From Crocinitomicaceae bacterium (lineage in GTDB: Bacteria > Bacteroidota > Bacteroidia > Flavobacteriales_D > Sanyastnellaceae), in NCBI GenBank assembly GCA_002722795.1, contig PBMY01000014.1, positions 124,001-188,000 of the forward strand: 64,000 nt of DNA, written 5' to 3'. Below, piece after piece: positions 896-10,238 of the stretch; the first letter of the stretch is position 1; every line of letters starts with the position of its first letter. A program made the translations under genes and the position numbers. Under the pieces are notes generated by a model, which was not told where the DNA came from, ran no database searches, and worked only from the letters and a program-made list of their open reading frames with translations.

Positions 896-3800
896 ATGGC
901 AAAAGGATTTCCTGAAAGAGGATCGCTGCACTTATCGAGGACGGCGAAAGAAATGTTGGATGTTTGGAAGAAGGAGAAAACGTTTCAGGCAAGCATTGAT
1001 TTACGTTCCGAGGACAAACCATATGTCTTTTACGAAGGCCCCCCTTCAGCAAATGGCATGCCCGGCATTCACCACGTTATGGGACGTACGATTAAAGACA
1101 TTTTCTGTCGTTTTGCTACTCTTAACGGAAAACGTGTTGAAAGGAAAGCAGGTTGGGACACACACGGACTTCCAGTTGAGCTTGGTGTAGAGAAAGAGTT
1201 AGGAATTACCAAAGAAGACATTGGCACAAAAATCACGGTTGAAGAATACAATCAGGCTTGCAGAAAAGCTGTTATGAAGTATACTAGTGTTTGGAATAAC
1301 CTAACTCGTCAAATGGGATATTGGGTGGATATGGAATCACCCTATGTCACTTACGAAAACAAATACATTGAGTCAGTTTGGTGGCTATTAGGCCAACTAT
1401 ACAAGAAGAATTTAATCTATAAGGGTTACACTATTCAGCCCTACAGTCCTATGGCAGGAACAGGGTTAAGTTCTCACGAACTCAACCAACCTGGAACATA
1501 TAGAGATGTAAAGGATACTACAATTGTTGCTCAGTTTAGAGTTACTTCAGAAGGAGCAACAACTGTAAGAGGATTTTGTTCAGATGATAGCGACCTACCA
1601 ATAGATTTGCTTGCATGGACAACAACGCCATGGACTCTTCCTTCAAATACGGCATTGACTGTTGGCAACAATATTGACTACGCTATAGTCAAAACTACAA
1701 ACAGATATACTGAGGAGCCTTGTATTGTAGTTCTTGCTGAAGCACTTATTGAAAAGCAATTTGACAAAAAGGCGCCTCAACATGAAGTAATTGGTAGATG
1801 TAAGGGTTCTGATCTAGTTGGTGTGACATATCATCAACTTATTGACTGGGCTCAGCCAATGGAGGAGCCTGAAGAAGCATTTAGGGTAATTCCAGGGTCG
1901 TTTGTGACTACTGAAGATGGAACCGGCATTGTTCATACAGCACCAACTTTTGGTGCTGATGACGCCTTAGTTGCTAAGGAGGCTGGAGTGCCACCAATGC
2001 TAGTAGATGACGGAAATGGTCATGGTGTTCCCTTAGTTGACCTTCAAGGAAGACTTCGAGAAGGATATGGACCATTTGCAGGATTCTACGTTAAAAACGA
2101 ATACTACCCTGCTGGAGAGGCTCCTGAAAAATCATTAGACGTAGAAATCGCGATTGACTTAAAGACTAGAGGCCAAGCTTTCAAGGTTGAGAAATACCAG
2201 CACAGCTATCCACATTGCTGGAGAACTGATAAACCCATCCTATATTACCCATTAGATTCTTGGTTTATCAAAGCAACAGCTATGAAGGACAGAATGGCTC
2301 AGCTAAATAAAACCATAAATTGGAAGCCGGAAAGTACAGGTATTGGGCGATTTGGAAAATGGTTAGAAAACCTAAATGATTGGAACCTTAGCAGATCTAG
2401 ATTTTGGGGGATTCCAATTCCGATTTGGAGAACAGATGACGGTTTAGAGGAAAGGTGTATTAGTTCAGTAGAGGAACTTTCAGACGCATGTCGCGAAGCA
2501 GTATCATCAGGCCTTATGGGGACTAATCCACTTGACAAATTCAAGGCAGGGGATATGTCAGAAGAGAATTATAATACATTTGATTTACACAAACACGTAG
2601 TAGATGATATTGTTTTAAAGTCGTCAAATGGTGAGCCGATGAGGCGTGAAACAGATCTTATTGATGTCTGGTTTGATTCAGGATCTATGCCTTATGCGCA
2701 GTGGCATTACCCTTTTGAAAACAAGGAAAAAGTTGATTTTGGGGGTGCTTACCCTGCTGATTTTATTGCTGAAGGTGTAGACCAAACAAGAGGGTGGTTC
2801 TATACCCTTCACGCCATTTCAACCATGGTTTTTGATAAGGTAGCATACAAAAATGTTGTTTCAAATGGCCTTGTACTCGATAAGCATGGAGTAAAGATGT
2901 CGAAGAGACTTAACAATGCCATCGATCCATTCACGACATTAGACCAATACGGTGCTGATGCCACTCGTTGGTATATGATAAGTAATGCTCAGCCATGGGA
3001 TAATCTTAAATTTGATCTTGACGGAGTTGGTGAGGTGACTAGGAAATTTTTTGGCACACTACACAACACTTATAACTTCTTTGCTCTTTACGCTAACATA
3101 GATGGATACACAGGATTAGAGGAAGAATTGGCATATGAAAATAGGCCTGAAATTGACAGATGGATTCTGTCTAGAATGCACACCATTGCAGGTGAAATGC
3201 ATTCAGCATTTGAGGACCTTGAAACAACAAAAGCAGCGAGATTACTTCAAAACTTTGTGACGGATGAATTGAGCAATTGGTATGTTAGACTGAACCGCCA
3301 AAGATTTTGGAAGGGGGATTTGAATGAGGATAAGATTAGCGCATACCAAACACTAGCTACTTGTCTTAAGACTTGTGCTATCCTAGGTTCTCCAATCGCA
3401 CCGTTCTTTATGGACAGACTTTACAGAGATATAAATGAGGGCCTTGGAGTTAATAGAGATGGCGCGGAAAATTCAGTTCATCTAGCAGATTTCCCAATTG
3501 CTGATAAGAGCATAGTCGACAAGGAACTAGAAAAAAGAATGGAATTAGCGCGAAAGCTAAGTTCACAGGTACTAAGCTTGAGAAAGCGTGAAATGATACG
3601 AGTACGTCAGCCACTAAGAAAAATTATGGTTCCAATGCTTGACGATGCAAACGCTGAAAGACTAGCTGCTGTTGAGGATCTTATTAGGACTGAGGTAAAC
3701 GTAAAAGAAGTTCAAGTAATCAGAGACGGTGGAGGGATTGTAAAATCTATCAAGCCTGATTTTAAAGCTTTGGGTCCACGATATGGCAAAAGGATGAAAG

Positions 3801-4267
3801 CAATTGCTAGTGCTGTTAAAGGTTTGGATTCAGAAGATGCAGAAAAATTAGAAGCTGAAAGCAAGCTTATTCTAAGTCCGGCAGATGGTTTGGGCGATGT
3901 TGAATTACTCCTTTCTGATGTGACAATTTCAACAGAGGATATACCAGGTTGGTTAGTATCAAGTGAAGGAGGTCTTACTGTTGCTCTAGACATTACAATT
4001 GACGATGAACTCATGGCAGAGGGTCTTTCTAGAGAACTTGTCAATAGAGTCCAAAACCTTAGAAAAGATTCAGGTTTAGAAGTAGTTGATAGGATTACCC
4101 TAATTATTGATGCAAATGATGAACTAAAGGGTAGGTTGGTAGAAAATTTAGACTATATTCGAACTCAAACCCTTGCTGAACAGGTAAAATGGCAGGAAGA
4201 TGCAGGGGCAACAGAAATTGAACTTGACGAAAACAATATTGCAAGGGTTCAAGTTGTTAAATATTAA
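896..4267 (+). CDS. ileS: Isoleucyl-tRNA synthetase
   Basis: 1123 aa; HGLPVELGVEKELGI, editing-domain TTTPWTLPSNTAL, KMSKR motif (VKMSKRLNNAIDP). Confidence 0.97.
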   Translation: MAKGFPERGSLHLSRTAKEMLDVWKKEKTFQASIDLRSEDKPYVFYEGPPSANGMPGIHHVMGRTIKDIFCRFATLNGKRVERKAGWDTHGLPVELGVEKELGITKEDIGTKITVEEYNQACRKAVMKYTSVWNNLTRQMGYWVDMESPYVTYENKYIESVWWLLGQLYKKNLIYKGYTIQPYSPMAGTGLSSHELNQPGTYRDVKDTTIVAQFRVTSEGATTVRGFCSDDSDLPIDLLAWTTTPWTLPSNTALTVGNNIDYAIVKTTNRYTEEPCIVVLAEALIEKQFDKKAPQHEVIGRCKGSDLVGVTYHQLIDWAQPMEEPEEAFRVIPGSFVTTEDGTGIVHTAPTFGADDALVAKEAGVPPMLVDDGNGHGVPLVDLQGRLREGYGPFAGFYVKNEYYPAGEAPEKSLDVEIAIDLKTRGQAFKVEKYQHSYPHCWRTDKPILYYPLDSWFIKATAMKDRMAQLNKTINWKPESTGIGRFGKWLENLNDWNLSRSRFWGIPIPIWRTDDGLEERCISSVEELSDACREAVSSGLMGTNPLDKFKAGDMSEENYNTFDLHKHVVDDIVLKSSNGEPMRRETDLIDVWFDSGSMPYAQWHYPFENKEKVDFGGAYPADFIAEGVDQTRGWFYTLHAISTMVFDKVAYKNVVSNGLVLDKHGVKMSKRLNNAIDPFTTLDQYGADATRWYMISNAQPWDNLKFDLDGVGEVTRKFFGTLHNTYNFFALYANIDGYTGLEEELAYENRPEIDRWILSRMHTIAGEMHSAFEDLETTKAARLLQNFVTDELSNWYVRLNRQRFWKGDLNEDKISAYQTLATCLKTCAILGSPIAPFFMDRLYRDINEGLGVNRDGAENSVHLADFPIADKSIVDKELEKRMELARKLSSQVLSLRKREMIRVRQPLRKIMVPMLDDANAERLAAVEDLIRTEVNVKEVQVIRDGGGIVKSIKPDFKALGPRYGKRMKAIASAVKGLDSEDAEKLEAESKLILSPADGLGDVELLLSDVTISTEDIPGWLVSSEGGLTVALDITIDDELMAEGLSRELVNRVQNLRKDSGLEVVDRITLIIDANDELKGRLVENLDYIRTQTLAEQVKWQEDAGATEIELDENNIARVQVVKY

Positions 4268-4278
4268 AGCTTTTAACC

Positions 4279-4650
4279 ATGGCAGAAATTAGATACTCAA
4301 AATCGGAACTTGATGAATTCAAGGCACTAATAGAGAAAAAGCTAGAGCTAGCAAGAGAGGATTTATCTCAATTACGTTCTTCTATGTCACATAAGGATGA
4401 TAATTCAACTGAGGACACTTCGCCTACTTTTAAGATGATGGAGGATGGATCTGAAACTATGAGTCGTGAGGAGACTGCAGCGCTTGCATCACGTCAAGAA
4501 AAATTCATTGTAAATCTTGAAAACGCTTTACTTAGAATTAAAAATAAGACTTACGGCATTTGCAGAGTAACAGGAAAGCTTATTCCTAAGGAGAGACTTA
4601 AACTTGTACCTCACGCAACTCTTTCAATGGAGGCCAAGCAGCGTCAATAA
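4279..4650 (+). CDS. TraR/DksA-family regulator
   Basis: 123 aa with coiled-coil N-terminus and YGICRVTGKLIPKERLKLVPHATLSMEAK, typical of Bacteroidota DksA-like proteins; lies between ileS and lspA. Confidence 0.85.
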   Translation: MAEIRYSKSELDEFKALIEKKLELAREDLSQLRSSMSHKDDNSTEDTSPTFKMMEDGSETMSREETAALASRQEKFIVNLENALLRIKNKTYGICRVTGKLIPKERLKLVPHATLSMEAKQRQ

Positions 4651-4677: not shown

Positions 4678-7095
4678 ATGCGTAGACTGATTTTAGGTTG
4701 GTTATTGCCACTGCTAGTAGCAGATCAGGCGCTGAAGTTTTACATAAAGCTCAATTTTACTATTGGCGAGAAGTCGGAGTTTATTCCAGGCATTCTCGAA
4801 TTGCAATTTTTGGAAAATGAAGGGATGGCTTTTGGATGGGCCTTACCAGGTGTTGTTGGGAAATTGCTTCTGACATCTTTTAGGCTTCTAGCATCTATTG
4901 CTATTGGTTATTATTTGACCAAAATTGTAAAGGATGGTGCTCATAAGGGTTTATTGGTCTGTGTGACAATGATTTGGGCTGGAGCTATTGGAAACATAAT
5001 TGATGGCGCTTTCTACGGATTGATTTTCACTCAATCAGGATGGGCAACTATGGCTACTTTAACTACTGAAGGTTATGCTCCTCTGTTTATGGCAAACGTT
5101 GTGGACATGTTTCATTTTGTTGTAAGATGGCCATCATGGATGCCTATGGGTCTAGGGGGTAATGAGATATTCCCTCCAATTTGGAATATTGCAGACGCAG
5201 CTATTTCTGTTAGCGTGATCTGGATTTTAATCAGACAAAGGGTTTTTTTTGCAGGGTTAGGTGATATCGATGGGACGAGAAAGGTAAAGGTGGGATCAAC
5301 AACTATTGGTGGCGATGCACCTGTGAGGATTCAGTCAATGACAACAACTGACACCCGCGATATCGAAGCAAGCATAGCCCAATCCATTAGCCTAATAGAA
5401 GCTGGATCAGAATTAGTCCGTTTAACTGCACCGAGTATCAAAGATGCAGATGCACTTGAATCGATAGTAGCTGGCGTAAGGGCTGCAGGACACGAAACAC
5501 CTATTGTTGCAGACATTCACTTTACTCCCAACGCTGCATTTAGAGCAGCAGATTTTGTAGAGAAAATCAGAATCAACCCCGGGAATTTCGCAGACAAAAA
5601 GAAGTTTATCAATCACGATTATACTGACGCAAGCTATGCCGAGGAGCTAGTTAGAATTCGCGAAAAGTTCACTCCCCTTGTCCTAAAATGCAAGGAACTA
5701 GGAAGAGCTATGAGGATAGGGACCAACCACGGCTCTCTATCAGATAGAATTACTTCAAGGTTTGGCGACACACCTCTAGGAATGGTTGAGAGTGCTTTGG
5801 AGTTCATCATAATATGTAGGGAGAATGACTATCATTCACTCGTTATTTCTATGAAATCGTCAAACACAAATGTGATGGTGGATGCCTATAGGCTTTTAGT
5901 TACAAGGATGGAAGAAGAAGGGATGAATTACCCAATTCATTTGGGTGTTACTGAGGCTGGTGATGGCGAAGACGGAAGAGTGAAATCAGCAATTGGAATT
6001 GGGACTTTGCTCGAAGAGGGGATAGGGGATACAGTCAGAGTAAGTTTAACTGAGAAACCTGAGGCAGAGCTACCAGTTGCTCGCACATTAGTGGATAGAT
6101 ATGTAGGACACAATGGAGTTAGATCAGAGTTAAATCCTGAAAAGAGGATGTCGGGAACACCAATTGTAATTCAAAGTATTGAACAGTTTGGCGATGTCAC
6201 ACACGCTAATCTTATCGACGTTGGGTATAGATATTCAGTTACTGATGATAAGTGGTGGATCGGTGACCAAGCTGCTGACTTGATATATACTAGTTCAAGG
6301 CCTGTTGATTTCAAACTGCCAGGAACTTTGAGGGTTCTTGTAAATGGTTCTAGTTGGTCTGAGACGCTTGAAGGACATGATCCGCTTTGGTCTTTAGAAG
6401 AATACAGAGAATTAGACGCCCAAGCCGCAAGCGTAGGCACTCACTATATCGCTTTAAATACCTCAGACGCTAGCAAACTAGGAAAAGAATTTAGAAATAG
6501 AGACAACCTAGTTATTGTCCTTAGCTCAGAAAGCGAAATGCCAGTTAGCGAGTACAGACAGGCAATCGCTTCAATCGAGTCCGGAGGTTGGAGAATTATT
6601 TTAAGGAATAACTGCTCTGCTGAAATAGAAAATTTCACCCTTTACTCTAGCATAGATGTTGGAGCTCTATTGATTGATAAAAAGATTGATGGTATTTGGC
6701 TCGAAGGTGAGAAAGTAAGTTTGGTTGAGCGAAATAGATTGAGCTTTGGGATACTTCAGGCAACACGTACTCGAATTTCTAAGACTGAGTATATTTCTTG
6801 CCCAAGTTGTGGGAGAACACTTTTTGATCTAGAAGAGACTACAGCTAAGATTAGAGAGGCGACAAACCATTTGAAGGGTGTCAAGATTGGTATCATGGGA
6901 TGCATTGTGAATGGACCTGGTGAGATGGCGGACGCAGATTTTGGATACGTTGGAACAGGTCCGGGCAAAATCACACTTTACAAGGAAAAGGAAGTTGTAC
7001 AGAAGAATATTCCTGAGGAGCAAGGAGTTGCAGCTTTGATTGAGTTGATTAAGAGTGCAGGGTGCTGGGTTGAGCCAAACACCGAAAAAGAGTAA
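4678..7095 (+). CDS. lspA-ispG: Single ORF fusing lipoprotein signal peptidase (LspA, about residues 1-195) to 4-hydroxy-3-methylbut-2-enyl diphosphate synthase (IspG/GcpE, remainder)
   Basis: N-terminal part has LspA TM segments and catalytic Asp motifs (GNIIDG, NIADAAIS). It continues in frame into IspG (KVKVGSTTIGGDAPVRIQSMTTTDTRD; Fe-S Cys motifs CPSCGRTLFD and GCIVNGPGE) with the long Bacteroidota/plant-type insert. Confidence 0.85.
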   Translation: MRRLILGWLLPLLVADQALKFYIKLNFTIGEKSEFIPGILELQFLENEGMAFGWALPGVVGKLLLTSFRLLASIAIGYYLTKIVKDGAHKGLLVCVTMIWAGAIGNIIDGAFYGLIFTQSGWATMATLTTEGYAPLFMANVVDMFHFVVRWPSWMPMGLGGNEIFPPIWNIADAAISVSVIWILIRQRVFFAGLGDIDGTRKVKVGSTTIGGDAPVRIQSMTTTDTRDIEASIAQSISLIEAGSELVRLTAPSIKDADALESIVAGVRAAGHETPIVADIHFTPNAAFRAADFVEKIRINPGNFADKKKFINHDYTDASYAEELVRIREKFTPLVLKCKELGRAMRIGTNHGSLSDRITSRFGDTPLGMVESALEFIIICRENDYHSLVISMKSSNTNVMVDAYRLLVTRMEEEGMNYPIHLGVTEAGDGEDGRVKSAIGIGTLLEEGIGDTVRVSLTEKPEAELPVARTLVDRYVGHNGVRSELNPEKRMSGTPIVIQSIEQFGDVTHANLIDVGYRYSVTDDKWWIGDQAADLIYTSSRPVDFKLPGTLRVLVNGSSWSETLEGHDPLWSLEEYRELDAQAASVGTHYIALNTSDASKLGKEFRNRDNLVIVLSSESEMPVSEYRQAIASIESGGWRIILRNNCSAEIENFTLYSSIDVGALLIDKKIDGIWLEGEKVSLVERNRLSFGILQATRTRISKTEYISCPSCGRTLFDLEETTAKIREATNHLKGVKIGIMGCIVNGPGEMADADFGYVGTGPGKITLYKEKEVVQKNIPEEQGVAALIELIKSAGCWVEPNTEKE

Positions 7096-7099
7096 TCCT

Positions 7100-7819
7100 A
7101 TGTTAGTTCCATCCCTCAAAGCAATTGTGATTGGAGCTATCTCATATTCTGATTCAAGTAAAGTTGTAAAAGTGCTGACTCAAGAGTACGGGATTTTGCC
7201 TGTATTTGTTAGAGTAAGTAAAAAGACAAGCGTGCTTTGGCATCCACTTGCTACCCTTGAGCTTTCAGAGGTAAAACGTAAAAATTCAAATTCACTTGCA
7301 ACTTTTAAAGGGGTTGAAAGGGCATCATCTGCTATTGAAACATTGCGTGATCCCAAACGCACAGCTTTGGCTTTTTTCCTTTCTGAGTTTCTAGAAAAAT
7401 CAGTTCCTGAGGGCACCCATATTGATGGTGTTTTTGACGTTATTGAAGAAGCAGTTTGCCTTTTAGAGAACGATAAACACGTTGCTAATCTTCACTTTTA
7501 TGCTATTGCAAAAGTGATTCTTGCTCTAGGATTAATGCCTGAAAATACTGGAGATTCTAGTCATAGCTTACACCTTGAAACAGGAGAGTGGCACGATGTT
7601 AAGCCACTACTTTCTAAGACTTCTTATCTACTTAAATATGATCTTGCAGAATTGATGATTAAAATTCCGGGCATGGATTTTGTTAACATTCGAAACCTAA
7701 GACTAAATCAAAACGAACGTAAGGAACTTTTGCTTGCTATGGTAATGTTCATTCAACTGCATCATGCGGGATTAAGAGAGATAAAAAGTTATGAAGTCCT
7801 CGAGACAATATTTGACTAA
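7100..7819 (+). CDS. recO: DNA repair protein RecO (start at 7100 rather than the ORF-track start 7055)
   Basis: MLVPSLKAIVIGAISYSDSSKVVKVLTQEYGILPVFVRV is a RecO N-terminal OB fold; start at 7100 avoids overlap with ispG. Confidence 0.85.
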   Translation: MLVPSLKAIVIGAISYSDSSKVVKVLTQEYGILPVFVRVSKKTSVLWHPLATLELSEVKRKNSNSLATFKGVERASSAIETLRDPKRTALAFFLSEFLEKSVPEGTHIDGVFDVIEEAVCLLENDKHVANLHFYAIAKVILALGLMPENTGDSSHSLHLETGEWHDVKPLLSKTSYLLKYDLAELMIKIPGMDFVNIRNLRLNQNERKELLLAMVMFIQLHHAGLREIKSYEVLETIFD

Positions 7820-10238
7820 CCTCATTCTATTAAAGACAGCTTTAGTACTCTGCTTTGCTTTTGCATCTTACGATACGTTTGCCCAAGATTCTTCAGAAAG
7901 TACTGAGACAGTTAGAGTAGTTGTGGGATCGATGCCAATCCCATTTGCTGTTTGCACTAACCTGACTACAAATGAAACTTCAGTTTCTGATGTAAATGGC
8001 ATTTTGATTTTGCCCAAAAGAAATGTTGAAGACTCTCTTGAATTTAGATCGTTAGGATTTGAGTCGCTTGTGGTGTTGCCTACCGAAAAAATTAGTAATG
8101 AGATAAGGCTAAACGAAAGTCCTGTAGGCCTTGATGCAGTTCTTATCAGCTCGAATATCAGTCCAGCCCAAGTCCAAAGAGACGACCTCAAGGTAGTAGA
8201 TAACCTCCAAGTAACATCAGTTGTTTCTACTAGTGCTCCAAGCAAATCAACGGATCTACTAATGAACACAGGTCAAGTGATGGTGCAACAGAGTCAACAG
8301 GGAGGAGGTTCGCCAATTATAAGAGGATTCGAAGCAAATAGAATTCTACTTGTAATTGATGGTGTAAGGATGAATAACGCCATCTATAGATCGGGACATC
8401 TACAAAACGCAATTACTGTTGACCCAAATTCATTAGAGCAAGTTCAAATAGTAATGGGTCCAAGCTCTGTAAAATACGGAAGCGACGCACTTGGTGGAGT
8501 GGTCCACTTTCAGACTCATAGACCTAGGTTTAGGAGGGATGGATCAGAGGATATTTGGTCTGGTTTTGCTTCAGTCCAAACTCTTTCAAATAATAATTCT
8601 TCAGTTTTGAGCGCAATGGTTGAAGGAGGTGGCGAGAAGTGGGCTTCACTTGTTTCGATAAGTAAAAGCGAATATGGTGATTTAAGGATGGGTGAGAATA
8701 GGATGCATGGAGACTCAGCTTGGGGTTTAGCAACAGATTACATTGATACCATCGATGGATTAGATGTAGTATTAGAAAACTCAGATCCAAATTTGCAAGT
8801 GGGCACAGGGTATGAACAAACTGATTTTATGCATAAGCTGCGTTTTGCAATACCTGGTGGTGCTCTTCAGACAAATGTTCAGTATAGCATTAGTTCTAAT
8901 ATTCCTCGATACGACAAGATCAATAACATTAGTGATGGAACTTATAGCCCCAAGTGGGCAGAGTGGAATTACGGCCCTCAAAAAAGACTTATGACAGCTT
9001 TAAGTTGGGAGCAGTTTTTAAGAATTCCTGGGTCGATTTATACAACACTAGCATACCAAAACATACAGGAGTCTAGGCTTAAACGAAGGCTAGGATTTGA
9101 CATACGAGAAGAACAATACGAGGATTTAGATGTAATCTCGCTTTCATCTATTTGGAGGTCTTCGCCTTTTAAAGGGAATGGATGGGGTTATGAAATGGGT
9201 GTTGATGGTCAATTTAATGGATTAGAATCTACTTCTAATACTCCAGAAGTTTTTACTCGATACGCAAACGATGGTTCAAAAATGCTGACTCTTGGAGCTT
9301 TTGCTTCAGCTAAAAGGACTAATGAGGATAGAGTCTTGTACGCCGGTATTAGATATAATTACTCAGCTATTGAAGCGAATTATGATCTAAGCTCATATGC
9401 ATTCGGAGGTTTGGGATTTGATAATGTAAGCTTGAAAAATGCAGCAATTACGGGGAGTTTGGGCTATGAAGCCCCTGTAGGAAGAAAAATCAAAAGCCAT
9501 TCATCTTTCTCTACAGGTTTTAGGAATCCAAACATCGATGACGCAACAAAGATTCGCGAGAAGAATGGGGTTCTATTGATTCCAAACAACGAAATAAATC
9601 CAGAATATATCTATTCTCTTGACCAAAGCATCAGCTTAAGTCCCTTTGAGAAGAGGTCCAAACTTAATATTACAGTAGCTGGATTCTTTAGCCTTTGGGC
9701 AGATGCAATAGTTCCATTTCCAACAACTTTTAATGGCAATTCGGTTATTGAATTCGATGGAGAACCTGTTTTTGTTTATATGAATAACAACCTTGAAAAT
9801 TCATTTATTTATGGAGCAAGATGTGAGATTCAATCTCAATTTGCTGATAACATGTCATTCAATGGGACGGTAAATTACACTCGTGGTCACACTATTGTTG
9901 GAGGGACGCCATTGAGTCATATTCCGCCGATTTTTGGGCGAGTTGGACTATTGAAAAATAGCTCTAGTTGGAGTTTTGAGACTTATATTTTATTCAATGG
10001 ATCTAAGAAATTTGACCTATATGGTGACGCAGCAACAGATAATTTAGTCGAGGCTCTCGATGGGACTCATACACCTGCATGGTGGACATGGAATATTGAA
10101 ACTACTTATGATATTTCATCTGATCTGCACCTTCAAGCTGGAGTGCAAAACATTCTAGACGTTCACTACAAACCTTTTGCTTCTGGTATTTCTGCTCCTG
10201 GACTTGGATTTTATATAGCGTTGAACACTAACTTCTGA
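7791..10238 (+). CDS. TonB-dependent outer-membrane receptor with N-terminal carboxypeptidase-regulatory-like domain (haem/siderophore type)
   Basis: Signal peptide ending AFASYDTFAQ, plug domain (QQGGGSPIIRGFEANRILLVIDGVRMNNAIYRSGHLQNAITVDPNSLEQVQIVMGPSSVKYGSDALGGVV), SSNIPRYDKI..AEWNYGPQKRL. Confidence 0.9.
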   Translation: MKSSRQYLTNLILLKTALVLCFAFASYDTFAQDSSESTETVRVVVGSMPIPFAVCTNLTTNETSVSDVNGILILPKRNVEDSLEFRSLGFESLVVLPTEKISNEIRLNESPVGLDAVLISSNISPAQVQRDDLKVVDNLQVTSVVSTSAPSKSTDLLMNTGQVMVQQSQQGGGSPIIRGFEANRILLVIDGVRMNNAIYRSGHLQNAITVDPNSLEQVQIVMGPSSVKYGSDALGGVVHFQTHRPRFRRDGSEDIWSGFASVQTLSNNNSSVLSAMVEGGGEKWASLVSISKSEYGDLRMGENRMHGDSAWGLATDYIDTIDGLDVVLENSDPNLQVGTGYEQTDFMHKLRFAIPGGALQTNVQYSISSNIPRYDKINNISDGTYSPKWAEWNYGPQKRLMTALSWEQFLRIPGSIYTTLAYQNIQESRLKRRLGFDIREEQYEDLDVISLSSIWRSSPFKGNGWGYEMGVDGQFNGLESTSNTPEVFTRYANDGSKMLTLGAFASAKRTNEDRVLYAGIRYNYSAIEANYDLSSYAFGGLGFDNVSLKNAAITGSLGYEAPVGRKIKSHSSFSTGFRNPNIDDATKIREKNGVLLIPNNEINPEYIYSLDQSISLSPFEKRSKLNITVAGFFSLWADAIVPFPTTFNGNSVIEFDGEPVFVYMNNNLENSFIYGARCEIQSQFADNMSFNGTVNYTRGHTIVGGTPLSHIPPIFGRVGLLKNSSSWSFETYILFNGSKKFDLYGDAATDNLVEALDGTHTPAWWTWNIETTYDISSDLHLQAGVQNILDVHYKPFASGISAPGLGFYIALNTNF

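Follow-up and report, generated by a model that had tools for sequence, protein, structure and literature searches.

In the genome analysed here (G000), the genes for LspA, an enzyme type defined by cleavage of prolipoproteins and inhibition by globomycin, and IspG, a type defined by conversion of MEcPP to HMBPP, form a single open reading frame (ORF) of 805 codons at positions 4678-7095 of the forward strand of the window, i.e., of the whole 64,000-nt stretch of DNA that was analysed, to which coordinates refer unless another locus is named. We know of no pathway link between LspA and IspG. On the sequence comparisons presented here the fusion is genuine within the genus, an uncultured one of the Flavobacteriales, and intermediate stages are found in close relatives, so that it probably reflects the chance order of genes rather than a dedicated device. 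The reading that we consider probable is a near-neutral fusion of two neighbouring genes by frameshifting across an overlap, with both enzymes working and the tethering of IspG being incidental.

The frame runs from ATG to TAA without an internal stop codon. Its LspA half (residues 1-191; 4678..5250, forward strand) matches Peptidase_A8 (PF01252) at residues 11-186 (E = 4e-27, 95.6 bits against a cut-off of 25), while the IspG half (residues 200-805; 5275..7092, forward strand), which is of the three-domain type with an insert, matches GcpE (PF04551) at residues 200-792 (E = 2.7e-120, 401.9 bits, above the cut-off) and the NCBIfam model TIGR00612 (ispG_gcpE; 447 bits against a cut-off of 280). 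The model for the long type of IspG, NF002534, is covered over nearly its whole length at 661.8 bits, which lies below its cut-off of 886. The LspA residues N47, G49, N106, D109, D143, N170 and D173 are unchanged in all 26 aligned LspA rows, among them the catalytic aspartates D143 in VVDM (5104..5106) and D173 in WNIAD (5194..5196), and the IspG cluster ligands C708, C711 and C742 together with E749 (4Fe-4S ligand region, 6799..6924, forward strand) are unchanged in all 35 IspG rows. ORF, Pfam matches and invariant catalytic and ligand residues thus agree with the original prediction of a complete LspA and a complete IspG in one uninterrupted frame. The halves are joined by the linker AGLGDIDG (residues 192-199; 5251..5274), which is poorly conserved in the alignment, and the junction peptide is VFFAGLGDIDGTR. 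In the G000 assembly (1.74 Mb, 33 contigs) lspA and ispG have one match each, both within this ORF, and no second copy of either was found in this 83%-complete genome. Following its first barrel, IspG has a variable segment (6100-6170, about residues 475-495), which in the clade of G000 and G004 is ~10-25 residues shorter than its counterpart in the remaining fused genomes.

In the AlphaFold2 model (mean pLDDT 89.3, pTM 0.80) two confidently predicted folds are connected by what is predicted to be a short flexible linker, with pLDDT below 50 only at residues 194-196 when segments of at least three residues are counted. The LspA half is modelled as four long helices, predicted to lie in the membrane at residues 2-26, 58-85, 90-116 and 171-191, and Foldseek matches this half of the model to 6ryp (TMt 0.72), 5dir (TMt 0.76) and 6ryo and the other half to the IspG structures 3noy, 4mwa and 4g9p. 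The LspA half therefore has the fold, the four membrane helices, both catalytic aspartates and the surrounding motifs of known LspA proteins, but carries a 600-residue enzyme on its C-terminus; the IspG half has the TIM barrel, the insert domain typical of Bacteroidota and the three-Cys 4Fe-4S domain of known three-domain IspG/GcpE, but its N-terminus is shortened and joined directly to a membrane protein, and its own start codon has been lost. Positive charges are found after the last helix of LspA, whose C-terminus is presumably cytoplasmic, as in the known topology of this enzyme; with this C-terminus located after the fourth helix on the positive-residue side, the fusion is topologically possible, as had been proposed. 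The expected product would be an inner-membrane LspA with an active IspG of the three-domain type attached to its cytoplasmic C-terminus through the short flexible linker, each half performing its normal chemistry, and we infer that the full-length polypeptide is made in the cell. Among the other MEP-pathway enzymes, the search covered IspH, which 13 of the 14 genus members have, G000 among them.

Both halves are, to judge from substitution rates, under purifying selection. For the two fused pairs in which dN/dS could be estimated for both halves (G007/G008 and G003/G011) it is 0.05-0.08 for each half at dS >1, and unfused pairs give similar values. Between G000 and its nearest relatives it is 0.1-0.2 for LspA and is given for this half only, because the synonymous sites of IspG are saturated.

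The locus was compared among the 13 genomes of the genus that carry it. In six of these (G000, G003, G004, G007, G008 and G011) one open frame crosses the junction without a stop codon, the five besides G000 being represented by loci L150, L151, L152, L153 and L154. Four of the fused loci correspond to public MAGs of independent projects, namely NORP19 (G007, NVXE01000010.1), SZUA-1298 (G008, DQRJ01000113.1), casp40-mb.172 (G011, JAQCFW010000005.1) and UBA2619 (G003, DDJR01000086.1), and the linker differs in length and sequence between the fused lineages. The LspA half of G004 (L150:7979-8608) has ~60% identity to that of the window and contains inserted residues; its IspG half has 77%. Six further genomes have two separate, overlapping genes: the overlap is 4 nt (ATGA) in G001 (UBA974) and 8 nt (ATGCCTAA) in G002, G005, G010, G012 and G013, where the relative frame differs from that in G001. 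A simple one-base error is unlikely to explain the split in G001, as its junction differs from those of G003 and G011 by several substitutions besides the indel, and it gives a perfect ATGA overlap. A gap in IleS on the G001 contig coincides with a run of N.

The remaining genome, G006 (PBNL01000008.1), is the nearest relative (78% identity), and its frame is continuous but for one TAA exactly at the junction (L149/L068, about 3489-3491), with no ATG, GTG or TTG between this TAA and the conserved start of IspG. The TAA could stem from an error in the consensus, could mark a recent split that left ispG with an unusual start, or may be read through. Decay of this ispG to a pseudogene is ruled out, since just two changes occur at otherwise invariant sites and its divergence is normal. 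The PBNL01000008.1 record (L068) is titled Euryarchaeota archaeon but belongs, by its locus and by genome grouping, to the genus of the window, and it is apparently a mislabelled MAG. The comparison with close relatives is hence mixed for the original prediction: the same fusion is found in independent assemblies, but some relatives have separate lspA and ispG genes at this locus.

The surroundings of the locus point to how the two genes came together. Upstream of the fusion lie ileS (896..4267) and, directly 5' of lspA, a DksA/TraR-type zinc finger gene (4279..4650; Pfam zf-dskA_traR, and synteny), the order ileS-traR-lspA being conserved, and recO (7100..7819; RecO_N, RecO_C) starts 4 nt past the fusion stop, all on the forward strand. 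A TonB-receptor-like ORF (7791-10238) overlaps the end of recO by 29 nt, so that the fusion, recO and this ORF form a very tightly packed gene run. The seven genomes compared from outside the genus but within the family all carry ileS, traR and lspA in forward orientation next to an ispG on the opposite strand that faces lspA, and in most of these loci recO, a TonB-type ORF, holB and PSP1 lie beyond ispG in forward orientation again. Within the genus only the orientation of ispG is flipped relative to these outgroups, and inversion of ispG alone therefore placed it directly 3' of lspA on the same strand. In the outgroups, IspG is extended at its N-terminus, and the extension closes with a DWFNYRRRTSR-like motif, which the overlapping genomes retain as SPFAYLRRCSR; the G008 fusion keeps a part of it (FAYKRR, SNSFAYKRRVSR), and still less, or nothing, is left in the remaining fusions, so that fusion was accompanied by erosion of the IspG N-terminus. 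The route would thus have begun with an in-place inversion of ispG, as the synteny indicates, and have passed through abutting genes with an overlap of 4 or 8 nt, as seen in extant genomes, to small frame-changing indels across the overlap, which, to judge from the junctions, probably removed the lspA stop and the ispG start. The switch also appears to run in reverse. Fusion and fission of adjacent genes in bacteria have the same origin, in that stop and start are lost between co-directional neighbours, but what differs here is that a single genus displays every stage, from inversion and overlap to fusion and apparent splitting.

In a genus tree built from six flanking proteins, G000, G006 and G004 group as a clade beside three more well supported lineages, namely G007 with G008, the five genomes with the 8-nt overlap, and G003 with the pair of G011 and G001; the branching order of these three lineages is weak (40). 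The fused G011 and the overlapping G001 form a fully supported sister pair. Fused and unfused genomes are intermixed on the tree and parsimony gives three changes (one fusion, two splits), rising to four when G006 is coded as split; on this tree at least three switches of state, in whichever order, are therefore needed. By likelihood, the probability that the ancestor of the genus was fused ranges from 0.50 to 0.95 depending on tree, model and the coding of G006, and the fact that the overlapping genomes have kept the old N-terminus of IspG points somewhat against a fused ancestor.

Outside the genus, none of the matches listed spans the junction in samples of 114 genomes from the family, 399 from the order and 396 from the phylum. 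Three candidates with long open frames or matches extending past the junction (G468, G562 and L142) proved to be stand-alone ispG or lspA genes with unrelated extensions. In one sister genus (L162, L165 and L081; G094, G087 and a relative), ispG lies inside a much longer stop-to-stop frame, which runs upstream of its likely ATG to up to 1076 codons; no relation to LspA was found in the upstream part. The open-licence full texts searched contained no LspA-IspG fusion, and the main text of a survey of metabolic gene fusions mentions neither ispG nor a signal peptidase; within the reach of this search the fusion is undescribed. In Bacteroidota, IspG is usually of the three-domain type (PMC10663253), and bifunctional IspDF fusions are known in the MEP pathway (PMC10663253, PMC13001223). 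IspDF likewise contains an MEP enzyme within a fused bifunctional polypeptide, but IspD and IspF share one pathway, whereas LspA and IspG do not.

A fused ORF could still yield separate proteins, if translation of IspG started separately within the linker or if a protease cut there, which we regard as unlikely. The predicted flexibility of the linker would suit this reading, as would the TAA at the G006 junction and the candidate starts in some fused genomes, i.e., an in-frame ATG shortly 5' of the conserved part of IspG in G003, an ATG in RKVMVG in G007 and a GTG in RKVKVG in G000. However, initiation at the G007 and G000 codons would cut into the conserved IspG N-terminus, and ATG, GTG and TTG are all absent from this region in G011 and from the sequence past the last helix in G004. 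In G000 itself, GTG is the only one of these three codons that occurs from the last LspA helix to the conserved GGD, and the GTG near the junction, at residue 205, falls within RKVKVG, so that the earlier statement that no good stand-alone ispG start is visible was essentially right.

A selected function, by which the fusion would place IspG at the inner membrane near electron donors or prenyl-lipid enzymes or fix a 1:1 ratio, appears improbable. The topology, with positive residues past the last LspA helix, permits it and the modelled linker flexibility is compatible with it, and the fused state has lasted over dS >1 in two pairs, so that selection could also maintain the fusion. On the other hand, linker length and sequence are unconserved, half of the genus has lost or lacks the fusion, which is also absent outside the genus among the matches listed, and the enzymes are without a known pathway link. 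Tethering or enforced co-expression as the purpose of the fusion, as first suggested, finds no backing: six genomes of the genus have overlapping, presumably coupled, separate genes instead, a stop breaks the fusion in the nearest relative, and co-expression was already supplied by the gene order. Nothing tested gave a sign of selection for one polypeptide. It is a speculative and doubtful extension that LspA-tethered IspG is functional and selected in part of the genus and ties an oxygen-sensitive step of isoprenoid synthesis to the inner membrane, with sister species pairing the two enzymes through overlapping, translationally coupled genes; if so, a single constraint would be answered equally well by overlap or by fusion.

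An assembly or sequencing artefact at the T8 homopolymer immediately 5' of the junction (5243..5250, forward strand) is close to refuted and very improbable: the position of the run, the MAG source of the data and the stop in G006 would fit it, but the in-frame fusion recurs in five more genomes of the genus, in several independent assemblies and without the T8 run, and a variant with 7 or 9 T, computed to end LspA at codon 194 or 196, would deprive ispG of a usable start, leaving the GTG inside RKVKVG as the only one in its frame. The run is not conserved among the other fused genomes, the junctions of which have no homopolymer in common, and slippage at T8 as a regulated switch is thereby ruled out. 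In the window, three runs of 8 T, this one among them, are observed against ~18 expected, so that such runs are rare here.

Near-neutral fusion of neighbouring genes is therefore the best reading, because the fusion is labile within the genus, its linker is unconserved and it originated from an inverted, overlapping neighbour, although the nearest relative, with its junction TAA and no canonical ispG start after it, counts against it. The fusion is most likely tolerated and not required, with membrane tethering and 1:1 stoichiometry as by-products. For annotation pipelines this is a caution, as an LspA-IspG fusion is no ground for inferring a pathway link. The locus serves as a small natural experiment that asks if gene fusions in bacteria mark functional association (the 'Rosetta stone' assumption) or only gene order, and the successive steps in the merging of two housekeeping genes from unrelated pathways, from single-gene inversion through overlap to fusion and apparent re-splitting, are preserved within the genus.
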